Of a DNA stretch of 25,260 nt, positions 1,476-25,260 are shown piece by piece. The notes beneath the pieces are model-generated. The model was not told the DNA's origin. It saw only the letters and a program-made list of their open reading frames with translations, and made no database searches. A program made the position numbers and the translations under genes. Location of the stretch: positions 1 through 25,260 of IMG/VR virus record IMGVR_UViG_3300032267_000894; one strand, written 5' to 3'. Numbering within the stretch: the first letter of the stretch is position 1; each line of letters starts with the position of its first letter. The stretch comes from a virus.

Positions 1476-4052
1476 TCACCGCCGTTCTCCGGCCATCGAG
1501 GTTGCGCTGTAACCAAGAGCGGCGATCGCGGCAGCCGGGGTCATCCCCTCGCGAATGAGCTTCACCGCCTTGGGCCAGTCAGCCTCACTGAAGAACCTGC
1601 GCGATTCCTGAATGTCGCCTCGAGCCCCGCCAAGCTTGGCGTCCCTTAGCGCCTTCTCGCGGATCTGATTGCGAACCGCCTCAGACTCGCTCAGGTTCTG
1701 GGCCACCGACTGTGGTAATTCGGAGAAGTGCGTCAATAGGTCGCTAGTGGCCTCGCCGCTGTATGGTGCCGTTGACAGGTTGCCTTCAGGTCCGCGCTTG
1801 CCGATGCCTGGCAGATAGCCGGTTGTGGTCTTGGCCTTCTCCGCCGTGCCTGGGTAAACCTTCGCCACTTCCTTCTTGAGCTTGTTCAGGAACTTGTTGG
1901 CTTCTTTTGATTCCATCGCTGGGTCGCCTGGGAACACAACGATCCCGCGATTGGTGGCCGAGGTATAGAACTTGACGTCCTCCCCCTTCGGCGTGAGCTT
2001 TCTGATGGCCTGGTCAATCGCGGTCACTTCCTGCGCGGTCGGCTCAATGGAAGCGGTTGGGTCTGCCAGCTTGTTGGGGTTCAGGCTGCGAGCGTCGAAG
2101 ACCATCGAGTTCTTGCCCTTGACCCCTTTCATGGTATTAGGCAGGTTGAAGGCGCCGGCCTCTTGAGCGTCTTGGAATGCGCGGAAGTGCTCGAGCGCCT
2201 CCATCGTCTTGCGAGACTGCGGGTCCATGAAGCCGCCTCCGCCGCCAGTGGGGAAGTCCATCAGCGGGCGGGCCATCGTCATTGGATTGTTCTCGACCTC
2301 GCCCAGGCTGTTCCGGTACATCCCGCTCATCGTCTCTCGCGATGGGAGCTGGCGGTAGCCCTGTGAGCCGTACAGGATGTCGCGGTTTCCTGCGCCAACT
2401 TCAGCAGGGTAGTCGTACATCCCAGCCTCTGGTGCCGGCAAATCCCAGCGACCCTGGCGGCCGTATTCAAGCTTCTCCGCAGGCGTCATAGACAGAACCT
2501 GGGGAACGTGGCCGAGCCCGGCGCCAGGAACCGCCTCATGCGTGGCCGTCGCAGTGTGCTTATACATATAGTCGCGGGCGGTGTTGTTCGCGTCCCGCAG
2601 CGCCAGCAACTTTCCTGCAAGCCCGTCAGTGTCGCTGTCGCCAGAGTACCGGCCCTTCTTACCACGATAGTAGAAGTCCTGACCCTTGCCGTAAACCCAG
2701 GGCACTTCCTGAATGTGAGGGCCGAACCAGTCAGTGCGCCCGCCAATCCCCAACTGGTTGGCTCGGTTCACCTGCAGGGCTGTCTCGGCGTCCATTACCG
2801 GATGCATAGTGTCACGCACTCCCTCATGCCACGGGTTTCCTGCTGTATCGGTGTACTGCATCCCCTGGGCGCGGCGGAAGTCGTTAACGCCAAAGAGCCC
2901 CGTGTTAGGCAGCCGCGGATCGTTCTTGTTCGCGTACTCTTTGATTTTGAACCCCATCCGAGCCGGGCGATCCTGCGCCACCGCCTCATCCAACGTCCGC
3001 ATTCCTGCGCCGCGGTAGGCCATCTGTGGAACGCCAGCGACCCGGCTGTTCAGGTGCTTAAGCGCAAACCCAAGCTCAGACTCCGGGCTCACACCGGCCG
3101 AGTACACACCGTGCTGCTCGAGGACGCGGGGAAGCTGATAGGGCTCGGCCGTCTCAGCAATGCCAGACTTAGCTCTGTCGTACCAAGTTCCCAGGCGATC
3201 GGGATCGGCCAACCGCACCGCCTCAACGGAATCGGCGAAGTCCTTGTCGATCCCTTTCCGCATTGCCGTAATGCCTTGCTTGCTGGTCACGGTGCGCGGG
3301 AATCCAATGAAGCCAGATCCAGATGGGCGGATGTGCTCCCCGGCCATCGCGGCATCGAGCACCGCCTGGTCACCGAGGTCTGCAGCCATCGTGCGGTAGT
3401 AGTCCGGCTCCACCTTCTCGCGCTTGCCGCCGCCCTTCTTGCTGGTCTTAGCCTCCGGGCTCTTGCCGGCGCTCTCCTTGGCCATCTTCTCAACCTTCTT
3501 CGTCCGCGCCGCCTCCTGCTCCTGCTTCTGCCCGAACTTGGATAGGACGCTCTGCTCCACCTCCGATCTCGGCACAATAGACAGCGGGCTAGCGCCAGTC
3601 ACATCAGCCAGCCTGCCCGCCATTCTTTCTGCCGCTGGACTCCGCGCTAGGTCAACTGCAGCCCTACCTACAGCCGGTGCAGCCCTGAGCGTACCTGCAG
3701 CGCCTGGTAGCATCCCTAACGCAGACGCTCCGTAATTGCGGAGGGCGCTTCCGTACCGGCCAGCCTCGAGATCATAGGCAGCCTGGTTGACGTCACGAAC
3801 GCCCTCCTCGAGCCCCTTGGCGGAGCCTACGAAAGGGATGAAGTCGACAGCACCAATACCGCCAGGGATACCGCTCTCGGCTCCACCGAATGCCGTCATG
3901 GAGAGCCTGCGAGCCCGCTCCCGACTGGTGATCTTGGCCAGCTGCTCCTCGAGGAAAGCCTGCGCCTTCTCGGCCTGGGTTAGCTCTCGGCTGCGGGCTT
4001 CAGGTTCAACACCACGAAGCAGGCGCTCCATCGTCGGGTACGTTACTGGCAT
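1476..4052 (-). CDS. Large phage protein of unknown function (858 aa)
   Basis: An 858-residue protein between terL and the portal. The start ATG has AGGTGA just upstream, 7 nt after the terL stop. The N-terminal 130 residues include a Gly/Ala-rich hydrophobic stretch (GIPGGIGAVDFIPFVGSAKG, then GMLPGAAGTLRAAPAVGRAA) that could contact or insert into membrane. Residues about 180-220 are Lys-rich and low-complexity. The middle (about 220-560) is globular and rich in aromatic residues and Gly, and the C-terminus is helical, ending in a short Ala-rich segment. I see no catalytic motif I can name. The packaging-gene position suggests a virion or injected protein, since phage genes of this size here often encode ejected or large polyvalent proteins, but that is inference. 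It could instead be an unrelated late accessory protein. Confidence 0.75.
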   Translation of the reverse strand: MPVTYPTMERLLRGVEPEARSRELTQAEKAQAFLEEQLAKITSRERARRLSMTAFGGAESGIPGGIGAVDFIPFVGSAKGLEEGVRDVNQAAYDLEAGRYGSALRNYGASALGMLPGAAGTLRAAPAVGRAAVDLARSPAAERMAGRLADVTGASPLSIVPRSEVEQSVLSKFGQKQEQEAARTKKVEKMAKESAGKSPEAKTSKKGGGKREKVEPDYYRTMAADLGDQAVLDAAMAGEHIRPSGSGFIGFPRTVTSKQGITAMRKGIDKDFADSVEAVRLADPDRLGTWYDRAKSGIAETAEPYQLPRVLEQHGVYSAGVSPESELGFALKHLNSRVAGVPQMAYRGAGMRTLDEAVAQDRPARMGFKIKEYANKNDPRLPNTGLFGVNDFRRAQGMQYTDTAGNPWHEGVRDTMHPVMDAETALQVNRANQLGIGGRTDWFGPHIQEVPWVYGKGQDFYYRGKKGRYSGDSDTDGLAGKLLALRDANNTARDYMYKHTATATHEAVPGAGLGHVPQVLSMTPAEKLEYGRQGRWDLPAPEAGMYDYPAEVGAGNRDILYGSQGYRQLPSRETMSGMYRNSLGEVENNPMTMARPLMDFPTGGGGGFMDPQSRKTMEALEHFRAFQDAQEAGAFNLPNTMKGVKGKNSMVFDARSLNPNKLADPTASIEPTAQEVTAIDQAIRKLTPKGEDVKFYTSATNRGIVVFPGDPAMESKEANKFLNKLKKEVAKVYPGTAEKAKTTTGYLPGIGKRGPEGNLSTAPYSGEATSDLLTHFSELPQSVAQNLSESEAVRNQIREKALRDAKLGGARGDIQESRRFFSEADWPKAVKLIREGMTPAAAIAALGYSATSMAGERR

Positions 4053-4059
4053 ATGTCAC

Positions 4060-5484
4060 CTATGCGGCGTAGGGGTTAACGCGCTTCCTGCTGGCTCCGG
4101 AGTCCGCGTAGTCATCTTCGTCGTAGTCATCGCGAGGCGGTGGGTCAATCTCAATCCAGCCCGAGTCACGAAGAAACCTCAGGCCCTGGCTGGTGCAATC
4201 AACGAAGTCGTCGTGGGTCGTCTCAGGGAATGCGCAGAGCTGGCTGACCATACCCTCGGCCCAGTCGCGAACGTAGCCGGGCCTGGTGCTGCTCTCAGGT
4301 ATCCAGACCCTACCGCGGGCGATCACGTTGCTGACGATGTTGAGTCGCTGCATTTTGTCTGCTTTGCCCGGATTGTACGAACGAACCGGGAGATGAGCCC
4401 TCTGCAGGTCCTGGATAAGGCTGATACCGGCTGACTTATCCTCAACCAGAATGAGGTCAACGCGCTTGCGATCCTTTCCCTCGCCATACACATTGTCGTA
4501 TTCCTCAATTACCTTAGGCCGTAAATCGGGGTATTGTAATCTATCCTGCCAGCAATCAATGACCATCACAGCCATTGGATCGTCAGTCGGTTTAAAGACT
4601 CCATAAGTAATACAGGCAGTCGGATCGTTTTGCGTCTTTTCAGTATAGGCGCAATCGTAACTCTGGATAATGTATTCAAACCGCGGGAATGGCTTATCTG
4701 CCGGCCATAACTTGAACATATCCCTTTTGACAATCCCGCTCTCTTCAGGGTCAATGATCTCGGCGAAAATCTCCTGGCGCCCAAGCTTGGTCCCCTCATA
4801 CTGCAGGATCTGTCTTTGAAAGTTGGGCGATAGGTTGGCCAGGTTGGTGTACGTCGATGCCGTAGTCACCACAACATCATCGCCGTCCCTGCCGATCAGG
4901 TCGATGATCAGGTCCTTAGGTCTGGGGGTTGTGGTGCAAATCATGATCGTCCGCTTACCCAGCCGCAGCCCGAACTGAATCTGATCCCAGGCCGCTTGCA
5001 GATAATCCCAGGCCGCTAGCTCATCCGCCCAGGCAAAGTGGAACTGAGGGCCGCGGAAGCGTTCTGGCTCTGATGCTGGGATCCCCTTGATGAGGCTGCC
5101 GTTCTTCAGCTTGAGCTCGTGCAGCGACTTGTTGTAGTCCTCTACCAAAATGGGAGGAATCACGCTCAGAAGCCCGCTGTCGCCCTCAAAGCAGGTTCCC
5201 CTGACGTCAGATGAGGTAGGGGCCGCAACGAGGGCTCGAGTGCCTGGATTAGACCATGCAAGCCACCCTATCTGTTCTGCAGCTAATCTCGTCTTGCCCG
5301 CTCCCCGACCCGCGCAGAGCAACCAGATACTCCACCAGTCCCCTGGCGGCATGATCTGGTGCTTATGAGCCTGGGTCAGCCACTTTGCCCGCCACAGGAA
5401 TGCCGCCTTTTGTTCTTCGGATAACGCCGCGAACTTTGCCTTGACGTTGGGGTCCGATAGCGTCTGGATTACGGCATCATTCAT
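4060..5484 (-). CDS. Terminase large subunit (TerL)
   Basis: The 474-residue ATPase-nuclease motor that cuts concatemeric DNA and pumps it through the portal. The ATPase domain has Walker A CAGRGAGKT (residues 57-65), Walker B FHFAWADE (148-155; D154, E155) and a coupling motif CTTTP (183-187). The RNase H-like nuclease has D277 (SYDCAY), E348/D349 (LVEDKSAG) and HDDFVD (424-429) as probable metal ligands. An acidic tail with DDYDEDDYAD follows the nuclease. Length is normal for the family. The start ATG overlaps the stop of the glycosyltransferase gene (ATGA), showing translational coupling. All catalytic motifs are present, so it is probably functional. Confidence 0.96.
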   Translation of the reverse strand: MNDAVIQTLSDPNVKAKFAALSEEQKAAFLWRAKWLTQAHKHQIMPPGDWWSIWLLCAGRGAGKTRLAAEQIGWLAWSNPGTRALVAAPTSSDVRGTCFEGDSGLLSVIPPILVEDYNKSLHELKLKNGSLIKGIPASEPERFRGPQFHFAWADELAAWDYLQAAWDQIQFGLRLGKRTIMICTTTPRPKDLIIDLIGRDGDDVVVTTASTYTNLANLSPNFQRQILQYEGTKLGRQEIFAEIIDPEESGIVKRDMFKLWPADKPFPRFEYIIQSYDCAYTEKTQNDPTACITYGVFKPTDDPMAVMVIDCWQDRLQYPDLRPKVIEEYDNVYGEGKDRKRVDLILVEDKSAGISLIQDLQRAHLPVRSYNPGKADKMQRLNIVSNVIARGRVWIPESSTRPGYVRDWAEGMVSQLCAFPETTHDDFVDCTSQGLRFLRDSGWIEIDPPPRDDYDEDDYADSGASRKRVNPYAA

Positions 5485-6113
5485 TCAAGCCAGTGAGATG
5501 ACGACACAGTGCCCTGATGGCAGACGTAGGTGACCGTCATCTTGTCAGGGTTGTGTTTATGGAAAAACTTAGGCATCGTCACCTTGCTTACCACGTTATC
5601 CGCCCAGAAGTGCTCGGTGTTGGCCTCGAGGTCATTTAGCAGCTCTTCAGCGAACGTCCTGTTAAACGCCATTGATGAGCTAATGCCACCAGGATCATGG
5701 GCAGTGAACGGACCGCGGTAATACTCATAGAACCCTGGCTTAACCTTGAGGAGGCCGCCGGTAGAGTTGATTACCATGTAGCTGTTTTGCAGATCCTTAA
5801 TGCTCTCCTCGATGTGGTTGGAGCGGTAGATCTCGTCGTGGTCTGCCCAAAAGAAATACTCGCAGCCACTTTCAATCAAGAACCTTAATGGTATCGAATA
5901 CCACAGGCACTGATTCTCGAGCTGCTCAGGGGTATGCATCCAATGGTGGAGGTATGGCAGATCCAGATCCTCAATGGCCCACTCAAAGCTGCCTGGGGTA
6001 CCGTTCTGATGGAATGCAACCAGGTCAGGCTTTACGGTCTGTGCTGCGAACTGGAGTGCTGCGAATCTTGCAAAGTCTGGCCGTGAGTAAAGCGGCGTAA
6101 AGATACCGATCAT
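5481..6113 (-). CDS. Putative GT-A type glycosyltransferase
   Basis: A 210-residue protein wedged between the two terminase subunits, overlapping both by 4 nt. The start resembles family 2-like glycosyltransferases: MIGIFTPLYSRPDFARFAAL, then QTVKPDLVAFHQNG, a nucleotide-sugar-binding pattern. EYFFWADHDEIY (residues 85-96) supplies a DxD-like metal site, D91-H92-D93. C-terminal residues include many His/Trp/Phe and no transmembrane segment. Enzymes of this fold transfer a sugar from a nucleotide donor; acceptor and sugar cannot be told from sequence. Co-translation with the terminase implies late expression, so capsid, tail or cell-surface glycans are possible targets (inference). Assignment is from motif pattern only. 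Confidence 0.65.
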   Translation of the reverse strand: MIGIFTPLYSRPDFARFAALQFAAQTVKPDLVAFHQNGTPGSFEWAIEDLDLPYLHHWMHTPEQLENQCLWYSIPLRFLIESGCEYFFWADHDEIYRSNHIEESIKDLQNSYMVINSTGGLLKVKPGFYEYYRGPFTAHDPGGISSSMAFNRTFAEELLNDLEANTEHFWADNVVSKVTMPKFFHKHNPDKMTVTYVCHQGTVSSSHWLE

Positions 6114-16320: not shown

Positions 16321-16585
16321 GCAAGCCGCGTTCCTTGAACTCGAAGCAGCAAAGACAGACCAAGTGAAAGCCAAAACCAGTAAGTTCTTTGAGCGGGTCA
16401 TAGACAGGTCTGGCCTAACAGGAACCGCCCGACAGGTGATGCTGTTGAGTGAACCAGTCTCGGTAGATATTTCAATTCGGGTTCCGATTCAGGCGTTTAC
16501 AGATCACAAGGCCCTTAACGCGATCGAACGGAAGCTTACTGAGGAGTGGGGCGTCCAGGTTTATTTGATCACGAGGACAAAATGA
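16304..16585 (+). CDS. Hypothetical protein, 93 aa
   Basis: GAGGA stands 6 nt before ATG 16304. The product starts MDFTDEQAAFLELEAAKTDQ (helix), then KFFERVIDRSGLTG and a strand-rich half (EPVSVDISIRVPIQAF, WGVQVYLITRTK). Soluble, no Cys. It overlaps the methyltransferase start (ATGA). The family is unknown to me; co-translation suggests an early role. Confidence 0.65.
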   Translation: MDFTDEQAAFLELEAAKTDQVKAKTSKFFERVIDRSGLTGTARQVMLLSEPVSVDISIRVPIQAFTDHKALNAIERKLTEEWGVQVYLITRTK

Positions 16586-17349
16586 GCAAGATCTCCGGGA
16601 TTGAGGCCAGGGACGGGAAGTTTTTGTATCCTACAAATGACACCTACATTGGCAGGTGCATGGCGGAGTACGGAGAATGGAAAGGCGAATTAGTTAGCAA
16701 GTTAACTAATATTATTCCAGAGGGTGGGGTCGTAGTTGAGGTTGGATCAAACATCGGCACTCACACTGTTCCGATCGCTCGACACCTAGGACCAAACGGA
16801 AAGGTTTACGCCTTTGAGCCCCAGCGGTTGATATTCCAACTGTTATGCGCAAATTTAATATGCAATGAGGTTTATAACGTTTTTGCCTATAATGCCGCGG
16901 TTGGAGATAGGCCGGGAGAGGTCCTGGTTCCAGACTTGGATATAGGCGTGGAAGAAAATTTTGGTGCCATTCAAGTTGCTGGAAATGAAGGATTGAAAGT
17001 CGAACTAATGACTATTGACCAACTAAAGCTTGACCAGTGTGACTTCATTAAGATTGATGCGCAAAACTTTGAGCCGCAGGTGATGCTAGGGTCCTTTGAG
17101 ACAATAAACAAATTTTCCCCTGTCATTTATCTTGAGTACAATTACCACGTCAGAAGCACGATCAACTTTTACATAAAGCAGTTCCTGAATGGTTATACCG
17201 CCTGGGAGTACATTGAGCCAATTTTTAAGGAAAACAATTACTTTGAAAACAAAACCAACCACTACGACTCAATATGTTCGTTGGGCTTGATTTTGTCAAA
17301 GAATGACATTCCCGGTGTCACTGATTCACTACAAGTAGTTTCAATTTAA
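16582..17349 (+). CDS. FkbM-family SAM-dependent methyltransferase
   Basis: A 255-residue enzyme with GAGG 6 nt before its start. The SAM-binding motif I is VVVEVGSNIGTHTVPIARHL (residues 50-69). FEP at 78-80 is the acidic tip of strand 2, and IKIDAQNFEPQVMLGS (156-171) is the FkbM signature (usually KID-E/C-G-x-E). FkbM enzymes O-methylate sugars or small hydroxyl groups; the acceptor is unknown. The gene looks richer in A and T than its neighbours (many AAT, ATT, TTT codons), a sign of separate acquisition. It could modify surface glycan or a virion sugar together with the glycosyltransferase at 5481-6113 (inference). Confidence 0.85.
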   Translation: MSKISGIEARDGKFLYPTNDTYIGRCMAEYGEWKGELVSKLTNIIPEGGVVVEVGSNIGTHTVPIARHLGPNGKVYAFEPQRLIFQLLCANLICNEVYNVFAYNAAVGDRPGEVLVPDLDIGVEENFGAIQVAGNEGLKVELMTIDQLKLDQCDFIKIDAQNFEPQVMLGSFETINKFSPVIYLEYNYHVRSTINFYIKQFLNGYTAWEYIEPIFKENNYFENKTNHYDSICSLGLILSKNDIPGVTDSLQVVSI

Positions 17350-19012: not shown

Positions 19013-19761
19013 TCATCAGCAACACGAACACCGGCGGGCACTGGTACACCAGAGAAGGCGACCCACAATATACCCAGATGGGACTAAACGGGAAAGAGCG
19101 CCCGACGACTTTACGGGACGCCAGAAAAAAGGATTTGGTCCCTAGCGTCACTACAATCCTGGGCGTTGTTGCGAAGCCAGCGTTGAACTTGTGGATCCAG
19201 AAGCAGGCAATTCTGTCGGCCATGAAACTCTCTCAGCAGCCCGAGGAGAGCCTGGATGAATACATCAATAGGGTGATCAAGGATGGCCAGGAAACGTCGC
19301 GCCAGGCAGCGGCGGAGGGTACTAGGATCCACTCAGCGATTGACCACTTCTACGACGAGAAGGAGCCCGTTGAGGCATACGCGGAGCACGTTCAGGGGAC
19401 CACCTCAACGATCAAGCTTGCTTATGGTGAGAGGAAATGGATTGCAGAGCGGGCGTTCGCTCATGAGATTGGCTTTGGCGGCCGGGTTGACCTTCACACT
19501 GACGGGATTGTCCTTGACGTTAAGACCAAGGAATTTGAGTCAGAGTCTGAGATCACCAACTTCGATGAGAACCTGATGCAGCTCGCCGCCTACCGGGTTG
19601 GCCTGGGTATGCCTCAAGCAGTCTGCGCTAACGTCTTTGTATCCAGGACTCGGCCAGGACTCGTTAGCATTCAGGAGTGGACTCCAGTCGAGCTAGACCG
19701 CGGCTGGGAGATGTTCTGTCACCTGCTGCAGTTCTGGCAGATTCGGAACAATTACCTGTAA
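19009..19761 (+). CDS. PD-(D/E)XK exonuclease (Cas4/RecB-like)
   Basis: A 250-residue nuclease. LVPSVTTILGVVAKPALNLW (residues 43-62) is the family start, followed by GTRIHSAIDHF (104-114; H108). GGRVDLHTDGIVLDVKTK (157-174) holds D161 and the D170-x-K172 catalytic core, and LMQLAAYRVG (189-198) is the QxxxY motif. Phage enzymes of this type resect DNA ends for recombination and work with an SSB or annealing protein. It closes the plus-strand operon and overlaps the convergent lytic transglycosylase gene by 10 nt. Confidence 0.88.
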   Translation: MIISNTNTGGHWYTREGDPQYTQMGLNGKERPTTLRDARKKDLVPSVTTILGVVAKPALNLWIQKQAILSAMKLSQQPEESLDEYINRVIKDGQETSRQAAAEGTRIHSAIDHFYDEKEPVEAYAEHVQGTTSTIKLAYGERKWIAERAFAHEIGFGGRVDLHTDGIVLDVKTKEFESESEITNFDENLMQLAAYRVGLGMPQAVCANVFVSRTRPGLVSIQEWTPVELDRGWEMFCHLLQFWQIRNNYL

Positions 19762-21209
19762 TAGTCTCGAACCTGCTTAACCGCCTCAAGACCAAAGGCT
19801 GCAGGAACAGCGATAGGCGCGAGTGGAGGATACATTGATGCCCCGGTGGCTGCTAATTGAGATGCGGCTATAAGGGCGTCGATATATTCCTGCCTCTGCA
19901 GTGCCTCGTCTATTTCTGCGACGTTTCTGCCCATTGAAGCACCAGCCGCTCCGTATCCAACCACCGGGAAACGTTTAAATGCGGTTTCTGCAACTCGAGC
20001 ACTAATCTGGCCTAAAGGGGATTCCCTGACTGACGTCAAAGCTGCTCGAGCTTGGTTCATTGGACGATTGGCTTCTTGCTGTTGTAAACGAGCCTGCCTC
20101 GCTCTCTCAGTGTCGGCCGCAATCCTAGCAAGCCGCTCTTCATTTGCCGCCGCTTGAGCCTGCTGCTGCGCTGCCTGATCAGCAACCCCTGGCGGGAGCA
20201 TCAATTGTCCGCGCCCTTCGCCGGTTAATTGAAACCTACCCTCGCCCATGCCTCGAATCTTGGCCATCGCCTCTGCGTCTTTGTTAAGCAAGCTCTGGCC
20301 GCCGGTAGCACGGACCTTATCCATCGTCTCCGCCTGCTCTGCGATTGCATACGGAACCTGATTGCCAAGGCTCTGGACCCACTTCTGGGCGCCTTTCAAT
20401 TGTGGGGAACCTTGCGTCGTCGGCAGGGCCCCAGGTCGAGCGGTAGGCTGCGCAGGAGCCGCGGGGGCTGCTGGCTGAGGGTTGAGCCGAGCCATCTGCT
20501 GTTGAGCCCTAATCCGCGCCATCTCCTCACGCATGGCTTTAGTTTCGGCCGCGTTAATACGGGACTTTGCAAACCCGACTCCGGCACCTAAAACTGCCCC
20601 AGTAGCCGTGGCCATCTCTTTATTCTTTTGAGCGTCCTCGTCAGGGTTGGCTGCATCCTGTTCGTAAATGGTCGCCTCTGGGGTCGGCTCGTTAGGTTCT
20701 GGCTCAACTTCAACCGGCTGCTTGGGCTCGTTTGGTGACGGCTCTCCCTCTCCAAGCCCACCAACGCTTTTTATGTGTTTTAAATAATTTATTGTTTCTG
20801 TAGGCAACTCACCTTGTCCAGTCCTAAAAAAACTATTGCCTGGCCCCCAGTTATACATTGCCGCAGCAGTAGCCTTATCACCTTCGCTTTTTTCAATTAA
20901 ATGCTTTAGATAGGTCACTCCGGCAGCGATGTTTTTTTCTGGATCGCGCAAGTCTTTAGGGCTAAACCCGTAGTCCTTAGCGGTTGACGGAAGAACCTGC
21001 ATAATCCCAACCGCACGTTCACCAGATTTTTTTTTGAGTGGCGGACCAATAATGACATTGTTTTTTTCGTCAAATTGGCGAAGCCTACTCTCGGCATGAG
21101 CTACCGACAATGCAAAATCTCGGTCAACGCCCATCTCTTCAGCTTTAGCAGAGATGAGTGCGGCGATCTTTCTTTGATTTTCGTTAAGATCTTGTTCTGA
21201 GAAAGCCAT
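19752..21209 (-). CDS. Virion lytic transglycosylase / ejection protein
   Basis: A 485-residue protein with a soluble lytic transglycosylase domain at residues 10-125. The catalytic Glu is in HAESRL (E40), followed by GIMQVLPSTAKDYG (68-81), NIAAGVTYLKHL (93-104) and AMYNWGPGN (117-125). It would cut peptidoglycan glycan strands during DNA entry. A Pro/Glu linker (150-190), a long Ala/Gln helical region (215-400) and a Gly/Ala hydrophobic C-terminus (FPVVGYGAAGASMG and beyond) suggest an internal virion protein that crosses the envelope. GAGGGCGAT precedes the ATG. Last gene of the right-hand late cluster. Confidence 0.88.
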   Translation of the reverse strand: MAFSEQDLNENQRKIAALISAKAEEMGVDRDFALSVAHAESRLRQFDEKNNVIIGPPLKKKSGERAVGIMQVLPSTAKDYGFSPKDLRDPEKNIAAGVTYLKHLIEKSEGDKATAAAMYNWGPGNSFFRTGQGELPTETINYLKHIKSVGGLGEGEPSPNEPKQPVEVEPEPNEPTPEATIYEQDAANPDEDAQKNKEMATATGAVLGAGVGFAKSRINAAETKAMREEMARIRAQQQMARLNPQPAAPAAPAQPTARPGALPTTQGSPQLKGAQKWVQSLGNQVPYAIAEQAETMDKVRATGGQSLLNKDAEAMAKIRGMGEGRFQLTGEGRGQLMLPPGVADQAAQQQAQAAANEERLARIAADTERARQARLQQQEANRPMNQARAALTSVRESPLGQISARVAETAFKRFPVVGYGAAGASMGRNVAEIDEALQRQEYIDALIAASQLAATGASMYPPLAPIAVPAAFGLEAVKQVRDYYR

Positions 21210-21219
21210 ATCGCCCTCG

Positions 21220-23127
21220 TTACTGAAGCAAAGAGTTTATTTTATTGCGAGCGGCAGTCAGACCGGACTCTTTCTTTGGCGCCTCAGTTGGTTTTGGCCC
21301 CAGTCCAATCGTCTTGTTAATTTTCTTGAGTTCATCGTGATAGTCGGACTCAATAGTATCGTAGGCCTTGGTGCGGTTGAACTGCTCGATGGTCCCGTCA
21401 GGGTTCTTGTCGCGCCAAGACTGGAACGTTTTGATATAACGCTCGTTCATGTTCGCTTGAGCGTTGGCTAGCTGAGACTTGAACAATAGGGCGTTTGCCG
21501 GGTCTTTGTCTACAATGCCGTTGATGTCCTTGACGATCCCCCGCTCCATATTGGTGACGGTACCCTCGCCCTTGAGGTAGGTCTTGGCATTGAGAAGCTC
21601 TGCCTTACTCAACAAGCTTCGGGCCACGTTGAGCTGAGTAATGACTTCTTGCGAGGCGTCTACCTGAACGATCGCCTTGTCGAAGTTCGCGATAGCAACC
21701 TGGTAGCCGCCTACGTTCAGGCCACCGCTAATCACCTCGCCGATCGCAGCCTTAACGCCAGGCTTCGCAGTTGGGCCAAGAACCTTCTGAACGTCCTTCT
21801 TGTTGAAGATATCAATAAGCGTCTTGGTTTCATTCTTCTGCGTTTTAATCGCATCTATTCTTGAGACCAGTTCTTCTTGACGCTTTTGCTCGGCCTTGAG
21901 TTTCTCAATCTTTACCGTCTCTTGGACTTTTAAGTCGCTTGCTCTCTGGGCCTCTTCTCTGTCACTTCTTGACTTGCGCGCTTGAACAGACTCTCCCTCC
22001 GGAGGTGGCTTAAATTCAGCGCCAGCGGCAGTAAGCGAGGCTTGAGCAGTCGGAGATGCGGGCTCTTGGGTTGGGGCAATCGGGGACCCAAACCTATTTT
22101 TAGTTAGCAGACGAGCTAAACGTTCCGATTCTTTTAAATCGTTTCTTTCTAGTGCGCCGTAATAACGACCAATCATAACGGGGTCGCCTAGGAAGGTCTC
22201 TCCTCCGATGTTGACCTCTTTTCCTCCTTGGCGATAAAGAATCTTCGGCTCGCCGCTCGACATATCAATAACTGTGCCGTCTTGCAGTGTACGGATGTTT
22301 CCTTGAGCAAGCTGTCCCTGATCAACCTTGAGCTTTTCTTCTTTAACTATAATGTCTCGAGCATCAATCTGTCGCTTCTGCACAGCGGCGTCAAACTTTT
22401 GACCTTTTTCAATGGCGTCTTGAATTGAAGCACCCTGACGGAATGCGTATTCGGCTATCTTCCGACCTTCTTCCGTCATCCCCAAAATAAGCTCCTCTTG
22501 AGCAGGCGAGACTTTCGCTTGGGGGGGTGCTGAGAGTGGCGCAGGAGGTGACGCTTGAGGGGGCGCAGCAAGAGGAGGAGGCTGGTAAGGTTTAAAAACC
22601 AAATCTGGCCGTGGCTCGCTTTCGTTTTTAGTTGGTGTAAATGGGGGTAATTCGCCCTGTGGACCAACTTCCAATGGACGGCTGGTAATTCCTGGAACGA
22701 TTGCAGACGTTAAGGCGCCACCCTCTGCAGGCGGTGGTACCGGTAGAGCGCCGGCGGGTGGCTGTCCTGGTAAAGCAGCGGCAGGTGGCTGTTTACCACG
22801 GAAAAGCGCAAGGCCCTCTGCTTGGTTTTTGCGCTGCTGCTCAATGGTAAGAAGTTCTTTGTTGATGTCGAATCGAGCTTTGTTTTCTTCGATGTTTCGC
22901 TTGAATTCTTCCTCTTGCGACTTGCCGACAGCCCCAGCAACATTACCTAATGCCTCAAATGCGCTACCTGTTTTTGTTGGAGTCAAGAAAGCTTGGGCAG
23001 CGGCCAGATAGGAAGGATCAAAGAAGCGATTCTTCCTTTGGTCCAGAGACTCAACAAGCTTCTGATACGCCTCCTCTAGGCGAGCCTGGTAATCTGGATC
23101 GGTAAGTGCCGTGCTTTTATTAGCCAT
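21220..23127 (-). CDS. Putative internal virion protein, 635 aa
   Basis: Sits 10 nt before the transglycosylase gene and probably shares its transcript. The N-terminal helical part (residues 1-110) includes DPDYQARLEEAYQKLVESLD. A Pro-rich stretch (113-208; PPAAALPGQPPAGALPVPPP) comes next, then a mixed region, and a long Lys/Glu coiled coil (about 395-445; KIEKLKAEQKRQEELVSRID). The C-terminal 180 residues are helical. This resembles the layout of phage inner-core or ejection proteins encoded next to a transglycosylase. No enzymatic motif. Role is inferred from neighbours and architecture; I recognise no named family. Confidence 0.65.
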   Translation of the reverse strand: MANKSTALTDPDYQARLEEAYQKLVESLDQRKNRFFDPSYLAAAQAFLTPTKTGSAFEALGNVAGAVGKSQEEEFKRNIEENKARFDINKELLTIEQQRKNQAEGLALFRGKQPPAAALPGQPPAGALPVPPPAEGGALTSAIVPGITSRPLEVGPQGELPPFTPTKNESEPRPDLVFKPYQPPPLAAPPQASPPAPLSAPPQAKVSPAQEELILGMTEEGRKIAEYAFRQGASIQDAIEKGQKFDAAVQKRQIDARDIIVKEEKLKVDQGQLAQGNIRTLQDGTVIDMSSGEPKILYRQGGKEVNIGGETFLGDPVMIGRYYGALERNDLKESERLARLLTKNRFGSPIAPTQEPASPTAQASLTAAGAEFKPPPEGESVQARKSRSDREEAQRASDLKVQETVKIEKLKAEQKRQEELVSRIDAIKTQKNETKTLIDIFNKKDVQKVLGPTAKPGVKAAIGEVISGGLNVGGYQVAIANFDKAIVQVDASQEVITQLNVARSLLSKAELLNAKTYLKGEGTVTNMERGIVKDINGIVDKDPANALLFKSQLANAQANMNERYIKTFQSWRDKNPDGTIEQFNRTKAYDTIESDYHDELKKINKTIGLGPKPTEAPKKESGLTAARNKINSLLQ

Positions 23128-23138
23128 AAATAACTCTC

Positions 23139-24119
23139 TTAAAGAGCGTTCTCTGCGTTTTCTGTATTTGCAACATAGAACGGACTTCTTGTATCGCTTG
23201 AATTAAAGTATGGCAGGAGCGTGTCAACGCCAACATTCCATAAATTTCCAAGAGATGATAGTTGCGATGAAGAAAGTCCAAACGCATCAGCATTGGCCCC
23301 TCCAAAAATTGAAGCAAGCCCGGCAATTTTTTGAAGGTCACTCAATCCATACTGCCCTTGAGTGCCAGGCTTGACTGTGGTCTGAGTTTTATCCGTTGGT
23401 ACTGGGTACCCTCTCAACAATCCAGCAACGTTACTCGCCGTAGTGAGAGGCGCCTCTAACTTCTGCTGCTCATATTTCTGCTTTTCTGCGCCAGCTTTTC
23501 TTAATGCCTCAGATTCGTTCAATCCTAAGGTCTGGGCCTGGGTAGCCAAGTCACTCTGAAGCTTGCCTGCCTGAGTCTGGTTCTGCTGCTCTTTTAATAA
23601 TGCCTCTACAGCGTTGTTATATCCGCTAGCAAGCAACTTCCCTTGTTCCCCGGCTAGGTTTGCAGAGACGTCCGTCATGGCCTGACCAAGAGCGCCAGCG
23701 TAACGTGAAGAACCTAAAGCGCCAGAGCCGACAAAACCGCCAGTAATCTGCGGCATGATGTTGCGCTGGAGGGCGTTCCCAGACTGCCTAGCAAGCTCCT
23801 GCACAACGTTCTGAGTGTAGGGGTTCATTAGCTGCTGCAGGCGCTCTGGAGTGATCCCAGCGGCCGCGGCGTTTGCTGTTGTGGTGGCGTTCGTAAGCCC
23901 AGGCTGATAAGCACCAGCCGCCCCCGCTACCTTGTTATAACCCTGCGTCTGCATCGGGTCATAGCCGGCAACTAACTGATCTGATGTTTTCTTTAGAAAG
24001 TCTTGCCCAGTGTTGGACAGACCAGTAACCGTCTTGTTGAACCACTCCGGCGCAGTCTCTTTGGCTGTCTGCGTCTCAGTTACGTTTGGCAGCGCCCCAC
24101 CTTGAAAAAATGACGACAT
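23139..24119 (-). CDS. Putative virion / DNA ejection protein, 326 aa
   Basis: GGAG precedes the ATG, which overlaps the stop of the repeat protein (TAATG). The protein is Ala/Gln/Asn-rich and largely helical: TGLSNTGQDFLKKTSDQLVA, AGITPERLQQLMNPYTQNVV, RNIMPQITGGFVGSGALGSS, then a Gln-rich helix to about 235. Segments like NPYTQNVV..L..Q....LQRNIMP occur, by my recall, in virion proteins of short-tailed phages encoded close to ejection proteins. No signal peptide or enzyme motif. Likely an inner virion component; the exact role is not provable from sequence. Confidence 0.6.
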   Translation of the reverse strand: MSSFFQGGALPNVTETQTAKETAPEWFNKTVTGLSNTGQDFLKKTSDQLVAGYDPMQTQGYNKVAGAAGAYQPGLTNATTTANAAAAGITPERLQQLMNPYTQNVVQELARQSGNALQRNIMPQITGGFVGSGALGSSRYAGALGQAMTDVSANLAGEQGKLLASGYNNAVEALLKEQQNQTQAGKLQSDLATQAQTLGLNESEALRKAGAEKQKYEQQKLEAPLTTASNVAGLLRGYPVPTDKTQTTVKPGTQGQYGLSDLQKIAGLASIFGGANADAFGLSSSQLSSLGNLWNVGVDTLLPYFNSSDTRSPFYVANTENAENAL

Positions 24120-25260
24120 TACTTTCTCCGCTTCATGTATTCAAGTGGTGACAAGGCTTTAGGCGGCAAGTCTTTCGGGGCTGCCTTTCTAGCTCGAGCG
24201 CGAATGTTGTGCATCATTTTATACAACTGCTCGCTCCCGGCTTTGGTGGAACCATTTCCTAGCGCAGCCACGACGTCAGCAGGAAAAACAAACTCCCCGT
24301 CTGCAAGCATAGCCGGAATATCGTCAGATTGGCCATCGCCAGGGCCAGAAACGGCATCTCCGCGACGGTAATCCGTTCTCATTTTACCCGATTTATAGAG
24401 CTTTTTAAACGGATCAGCCAATCCGCCCTTTGCAAAGGACATCTCTTCAACTTCAGGCTCCTCGGCCCCCAGGATGTCATCAATCGAAGGGGCCTCGCCG
24501 TATTCGTAATATTGCTGTTTGGGCATTGAAGCCTCCGGTTGGTTAACTTCTGGCGCAGTATTTTGCTCAACTGTAGTAAAAAACTGATCAAGTATGCCCT
24601 TGTATTGCGGTTTGCCGCGAATAAACATTGGGCTAATTTCTAAAAATGGCGTTGCTGCCGCGGCAACAGTTGCAATTTGCGGCATAGAAAATCGGAAGCC
24701 AGTTCTTGGTTGAGAAGGCGGTGGCGGAGGAGGTGACCCAGTGGGAGTAACCGAAACAGTAGGAGTAACCGAAACAGTAGGAGTAATTGAGACGGTAGGA
24801 GTAATTGAGACGGTAGGAGTAATTGAGACGGTAGGAGTGACTGAAACGGTAGGGGTAATAGAAACAGTAGGAGTGATCGAAGCAGTAGGCGTAATTGAAA
24901 CAGTAGGGGTAATAGAAATAGTACGGGTAATAGAAACAGTAGAGGTGACAGAGACGGTAGAGGTAACAGAGACGGTAGAGGTAACAGAGACGGTAGAGGT
25001 AACAGAGGCAGTAGGAGTAACAGAAACAGTAGGGGTTACTTCAGCAGTAGGAGTAACAGAAACAGTAGGAGTTACTTCAGCAGTAGGAGTAACAGAAACA
25101 GTAGGAGTTACTTCAATAGAAGGGGTAACCGAGGCAGAAGGAGTAACTGAAGCAGAAGGAGTTAAATCAACAGAAGGAGTAACTGAAGCGGTGGGAGTTA
25201 AATCAACAGAAGGAGTAACTGAAGCGGTGGGAGTTAAATCAACAGAAGGAGTAACTGAAG
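24119..25260 (-). CDS. Repeat-bearing virion protein (5' end beyond window)
   Basis: The frame has no stop from the right edge to the TAA at 24119, giving at least 379 residues. An internal ATG at 24685 exists, but the upstream codons are open and continuous, so it is probably not the true start. The visible N-terminal 174 residues are hexapeptide repeats ending in T-P (SVTPTV, SITPTV, SVTPTA and variants). A poly-Pro hinge (GSPPPPPPSQPRTG) follows. The C-terminal domain has a signature SGPGDGQSDDIPAMLADGEF, then VFPADVVAALGNGS and MMHNIRARA, which I recall from phage virion genes. Ser/Thr/Pro repeats act as extended stalks, often glycosylated. Role unknown; likely structural. Confidence 0.75.
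   Translation of the reverse strand, partial: SVTPSVDLTPTASVTPSVDLTPTASVTPSVDLTPSASVTPSASVTPSIEVTPTVSVTPTAEVTPTVSVTPTAEVTPTVSVTPTASVTSTVSVTSTVSVTSTVSVTSTVSITRTISITPTVSITPTASITPTVSITPTVSVTPTVSITPTVSITPTVSITPTVSVTPTVSVTPTGSPPPPPPSQPRTGFRFSMPQIATVAAAATPFLEISPMFIRGKPQYKGILDQFFTTVEQNTAPEVNQPEASMPKQQYYEYGEAPSIDDILGAEEPEVEEMSFAKGGLADPFKKLYKSGKMRTDYRRGDAVSGPGDGQSDDIPAMLADGEFVFPADVVAALGNGSTKAGSEQLYKMMHNIRARARKAAPKDLPPKALSPLEYMKRRK
24740..25260. repeat. 18-bp tandem repeat array (hexapeptide coding)
   Basis: About 29 units of 18 bp run to the window end, each coding a six-residue T-P repeat on the minus strand. Typical plus-strand units are AGTAGGAGTAACAGAAAC and GGTAGAGGTAACAGAGAC. Units fall into blocks: SVDLTP/SASVTP types at the edge, 36-bp alternation of SVTPTA/EVTPTV, four SVTSTV units, then SITPTV. 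Block structure points to repeated local duplication. Confidence 0.9.

Follow-up and report, generated by a model that had tools for sequence, protein, structure and literature searches.

The T-P hexapeptide array at the end of this viral DNA probably forms the C-terminal portion of a spacer, extended and tolerant of sequence change, within a giant (~2,000 aa) tape-measure/ejection-like virion protein of an uncultured podophage. This reading is based on the synteny of the gene with an ejection cassette, on a conserved C-terminal domain as opposed to a hypervariable spacer, on a tape-measure-type match and on hydrophobic segments near the N-terminus. From these sequence comparisons we infer that the protein is present in the virion and is ejected.

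The window, i.e., the whole stretch of DNA analysed, equals the complete virus record (25,260 bp), and the contig end cuts the array. On the minus strand, which carries all features of this gene, a frame without any stop was found from 25258 to 24119 (379 aa, open at its 5′ end). From the contig edge inward it encodes approximately 29 hexapeptides, then a hinge of 18 residues, six of which are prolines, then a linker of 82 residues and finally a conserved end of 106 residues. The hexapeptides, [VIL]-T-P-[TS]-[VA]-[SDE], occupy 24740–25258 up to the truncating contig end and are encoded by 18-bp units with a higher-order period of 36 bp. The poly-Pro hinge GSPPPPPPSQPRTGFRFS (24686–24739) follows, with neither a stop nor a frameshift up to the conserved domain, and must be translated, given that relatives keep the GF-x-F motif it contains. 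The linker (MPQIATV...VEEM; 24440–24685) is moderately conserved in an alignment with six close relatives (L090–L095), and the near-invariant C-terminal domain (GPGDGQSDDIPAMLADGEFV..GNGSTKAG..LY.MMH.IR; 24119–24439, including the stop codon) contains a core motif common to tape measure proteins. The first-pass annotation had described a repeat array fused in frame to a conserved GPGDGQSDDIPAMLADGEF domain, and this single frame, open from 24119 out to the contig edge, confirms it. Of the interval given for the fusion (24119–25260), the array itself takes up 24740–25258, and 24119–24739 comprises the hinge, the linker and the C-terminal domain.

Tandem Repeats Finder described the array (24739–25259) as 28.9 copies of an 18-bp unit with 75% matches, or as 14.5 copies of a 36-bp unit with 83% matches. 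Within the window, 28 hexads are complete and in frame, and they correspond to 20 distinct DNA units and 12 distinct peptides. DNA identity between units two apart was 0.835 compared to 0.714 in shuffles, a value reached by none of 2000 shuffles, and thus the 36-bp period, proposed earlier as a mark of slippage or unequal recombination, is real and supports that origin. The identity between neighbouring units was weaker (matched by 52 of the 2000 shuffles).

The suggestion that ATG 24685 is internal to a much longer protein was borne out. The residue corresponding to M24685 is V, V, T, T, and T in L091–L095, and M is found only in L090. No Shine-Dalgarno-like sequence was found upstream of ATG 24685, the GF-x-F motif just upstream of it is kept in all six close relatives, and in relatives with contigs of sufficient reach the frame extends upstream for a further 650 to more than 2,000 residues. 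Together, these four observations support the assignment of M24685 as a variable, internal residue.

The front part that is missing from the window probably lies in contig L182 (15,199 bp), the end of which falls in the same array. The last 119 nt of L182 match the first 119 nt of the reverse complement of the window exactly and in the same frame. Besides, an array 22-mer (CTCCTTCTGTTGATTTAACTCC) was present only in L182 among 2.9 million viral contigs, in a search that excluded the window's own record. L182 stops at most 16 bases from a 139-nt stretch with an exact 36-bp period. A stretch of this length can break a short-read assembly, which accounts for the break at this position. The tail genes of L182 are 89% identical to those of the related genome G001 (52.9 kb), and the window itself shows 88–94% identity to G001. 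Based on the exact overlap, the unique 22-mer, the assembly-breaking repeat and the comparable identity to G001, L182 and the window most likely represent one phage population. Joining them at the 119-nt overlap, which does not fix the copy number at the join, would give an ORF of 2078 aa, with the frame continuing past the contig edge. This ORF would begin 12 bp past a PF11397 (GlcNAc-type) glycosyltransferase gene, and a serine-rich block precedes the T-P block. The giant protein of G001 is likewise 2078 aa; selection on length was considered, but other members of the clade range from 1923 to 2672 aa, and the equality is probably a coincidence. Contigs L176, L177, L179, and L182, like the window, end within the repeat spacer; short-read assemblies cut these genes and the full protein stays hidden.

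About 80 related loci were read, out of at least 237 in the viral collection (a second query raised this to more than 590). In about 60 relatives, an almost invariant C-terminal domain is preceded by a spacer that is swapped wholesale. An alignment of 55 C-terminal domains showed 57% mean column identity and 48 invariant columns, compared to 7% and zero for the spacers, which do not align. The spacers are built of T-P hexads, TTSPEVSV octads, KASxE pentads, SxSxS or other S-rich sequence, TGT, GT, GS, NT, VTPP, APTP, or AEA repeats, and the TGT-type (collagen-like) ones match Pfam collagen in four relatives. Both type and length of the spacer differ among relatives, in agreement with the variation between phages that had been foreseen for the array. 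Among 67 giant genes with a closed start, 60 contain a low-complexity spacer (median length 181 aa, maximum 1,108 aa), and the giant proteins range from 468 to 3264 aa (median 1738). The N-terminal parts showed 77–91% identity among L179, L181, and L182 and are barely recognisable between sub-clades, which points to a modular protein. The N-terminal 1,000 aa gave no family matches. Hydrophobic Gly-rich N-terminal segments were found in eight of ten giants checked, in six of them within the first 310 residues.

The C-terminal domain carries the motif GPGxGxSDxIPAxL..GEFV of tape measure proteins, and its profile matches a solved tape measure protein (PDB 8zdo, E 3e-6) and the tape-measure PHROGs 6090 and 3547, the motif match being short (about 40 residues). 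Siphophage tape measure proteins thus share with the giant the motif G-x-G-x-G-x-SD-x-I-x-A-x-L-x-[DS]-GE-[FY]-V, as well as great length and hydrophobic segments. In contrast to them, the giant has a hypervariable spacer and not a helical ruler, only these ~40 residues match, and no long-tail genes were seen among the scanned structural genes of G001. These scanned genes, which are part of the genes of G001, included an SU10-type adaptor and podophage-like genes, and no tail-tube gene was recognised among them.

The gene next to the giant in the window, overlapping it by one base, encodes a 326-aa protein of a DNA ejection protein family (phrog_4287; 23139–24119, minus strand). It is followed on the same strand by a gene for a 635-aa protein without a family match (21220–23127) and by one for a 485-aa protein with an SLT transglycosylase domain, identified by a domain match as the virion lysin of the ejection cassette (19752–21209). 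In G001, genes for the SU10-type adaptor, proteins of 408 aa and 737 aa, an 80-aa protein, the PF11397 glycosyltransferase, and the giant are followed by those for the phrog_4287 ejection protein, a 622-aa protein, and the SLT protein. In this arrangement the tail adaptor gene lies upstream of the giant, and the ejection and SLT transglycosylase genes come next to it on the other side. The order giant homologue, ejection protein, ~600-aa protein and SLT protein was also found in Caulobacter phage GB2A, DSL-LC04, and ctpbd312. Their homologues are compact (581, 760, and 640 aa, respectively), share the C-terminal domain, the gene order and the three following genes, and are annotated as tape measure or hypothetical proteins; they differ from the giant in being three to five times smaller, in having a short linker where the giant has several hundred residues of repeat, and in lacking PF11397. 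The ejection proteins of podophages (T7 gp14/gp15/gp16; P22 gp7/gp20/gp16) belong to the same kind of cassette, with DNA-ejection-family and SLT transglycosylase proteins following. Compared to these three, the giant is an additional and much larger protein without sequence similarity to them. A repeat spacer in podophage ejection proteins is not described in a review (PMC8954989), and literature searches yielded nothing direct about such spacers, whether for ejection proteins or for tape measure proteins. Elsewhere in the window, a gene between terminase and portal (1476–4052) encodes an 858-aa protein without a Pfam or PHROG match, the G001 counterpart of which has 493 aa.

According to the ejection-like reading, the giant protein would be packaged in the particle and exit through the tail during infection. 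The tape-measure-type domain at its C-terminus may dock it in the tail or portal, and the hydrophobic Gly-rich segments near the N-terminus may enter the host envelope. The spacer would supply reach and be selected for extension and for threading through the channel rather than for sequence, leaving it to be freely rewritten by slippage and unequal recombination. In the clade of this phage, the PF11397 enzyme encoded in the operon might, less certainly, glycosylate the spacer as well. Against this model count the N-terminal 1,000 aa that resemble no family, the shortness of the tape-measure match, unconfident AlphaFold predictions of the C-terminal domain (55 sequences; pLDDT 59) and of the array (pLDDT 38), and the collagen triple-helix matches in the spacers of four relatives, which would fit a trimeric external fibre equally well.

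A sugar, perhaps GlcNAc, added to Ser/Thr of the spacer by the PF11397 enzyme encoded upstream could produce a mucin-like chain that is stiffened or shielded. This would supplement and not exclude the ejection-protein explanation, and we consider it a plausible but tentative extension, resting on genetic linkage in relatives and on the confinement of the glycosyltransferase to a clade with serine-rich spacers. The PF11397 match in G001 is strong (E 9e-56; 190 bits compared to the Pfam cutoff of 21). Among 16 full-length PF11397 relatives in the 2.9 million viral contigs, 14 are located 7–89 bp (mostly 7–12 bp) before a giant gene, and the remaining two have an ACP/ketosynthase insert in the intervening stretch; all 16 have intact frames and the DSH metal motif. 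No PF11397 homologue was found near the giant gene in more distant relatives, and giants accompanied by the enzyme have the most serine-rich spacers (S 0.19–0.43, compared to 0.29 or less, mostly far lower, elsewhere). However, the association represents one clade, and common descent alone could explain it. Thr-rich spacers (T up to 0.58) are common without the enzyme, the target could differ (e.g., a host surface sugar), and a sugar-bearing chain, if ejected, would still have to pass a narrow channel. The PF11397 gene is absent from the window and is ascribed to this phage through the overlap with L182. In the complete picture, widespread uncultured freshwater podophages would eject a giant protein with a spacer that repeat slippage rewrites and that switches between fibrous types, and one clade would glycosylate this spacer with an enzyme from its own operon to make a glycosylated DNA-delivery protein; this picture is speculative and of fairly low probability.

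The earlier proposal of Ser/Thr glycosylation survives through this upstream enzyme in close relatives, and not through the sugar genes cited for it in the window. The cited glycosyltransferase (5481–6113; 210 aa) had no match in Pfam, PHROG, or NCBIfam searches and was rejected as such. This gene lies between the terminase subunits, encodes a DHD-like motif (FFWADHDEIY) and is absent at that place in G001. The cited FkbM-type methyltransferase gene (16546–17349) is a genuine FkbM match and is conserved in G001, but it was rejected as a partner owing to its place among the early genes, at a distance from the cassette. Other genes were observed in the slot just upstream of the giant: a ketosynthase and an ACP-like gene in L095 (2699–4610), also in L188 and L189, and a ketosynthase gene in L172 (6894–7838). 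A lipid-type modification of a virion protein would be a possible parallel to the glycosyltransferase. In another clade, the slot in L114 (5515–6198) holds a PF10118 predicted metal-dependent hydrolase gene; L111, L116, L124, L152, L159, L166, and L168 have slot genes that look similar as judged by their N-termini, L114 alone having been scanned.

An external trimeric fibre or stalk, in which the spacer forms a rod outside the particle that bears the N-terminal part, is in line with the fibrous repeat types of related spacers, some of which score as collagen beyond the Pfam cutoff. In L146 (8672–9433), a Gly-Thr-Thr repeat spacer in the homologous position scored 107 bits with Pfam Collagen (cutoff 27) and is likely a triple-helix rod. 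However, the majority of the spacers are not triple-helical, the C-terminal motif is tape-measure-like, and the gene is flanked by a tail nozzle-type gene on one side and by the ejection/SLT genes on the other, the fibre-like genes of G001 being found elsewhere (3.4–9.3 kb). Gene order argues for a DNA-delivery role and against a receptor fibre; the virion fibre suggested in the first-pass annotation is doubtful and, in our view, an unlikely reading. Models of serine-rich-repeat and collagen-like adhesins and of extensins also score against the spacer repeat types; this likeness is compositional and not homologous, and a signal peptide, an anchor or a binding domain was not shown for the giant. 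Histone-like and extensin matches to the KAS pentads were likewise attributed to composition.

Even less probable is a left-handed beta-helix, in which the T-P hexads would follow the hexapeptide rule and form a rigid prism. In the joined array, all 39 hexads start with V, I, or L, and 36 of them have V or A as their fifth residue (I, I, and T in the others). The array matches LpxD/LpxA models (E 1.5e-12 to 1.5e-7), and the controls, i.e., the family's other natural repeat arrays, P/T-rich ones included, used in place of column-permuted arrays, do not. However, all these matches lie far below the curated cutoffs (47 compared to 207 bits). Compared to the pattern [LIV]-[GAED]-x2-[STAV]-x, the spacing fits and the second position, T instead of the usual G/A/E/D, does not; besides, 34 of the 39 hexads contain Pro. 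For the 379-aa piece in the window, an AlphaFold prediction made without an alignment was not confident (pLDDT 38), and the best-matching solved chains are low-complexity proteins that are not left-handed beta-helices. PDB sequence matches of the array covered low-complexity regions only, and those of the giant, to pentapeptide-type solenoid chains, covered KAS repeats only; both were treated as compositional. An extended disordered or polyproline-like chain is at least as likely. Translation from ATG 24685, the choice of mechanical ORF callers, with a 188-aa product and an array that is non-coding or chimeric, is already contradicted by the comparison with relatives and by the same array in a second contig, and is most improbable.

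In bacterial genome assemblies, the sole good match was a contig that binning had assigned to a Limnohabitans MAG, and a second match was found in an uncultured betaproteobacterium. The hosts are likely freshwater Burkholderiales, subject to binning error. Gene callers and short-read assemblies systematically truncate the giant genes at the repeat. Within one virion protein there is a clear split between a C-terminal domain that is near-fixed across hundreds of phages and an adjoining spacer that is never the same twice, which indicates that extension and not sequence is selected. This makes it possible to test how the length of the spacer bears on DNA delivery. If the linked glycosyltransferase does act on the spacer, the phage would, unusually, be decorating a component of the machinery that it uses for delivery.
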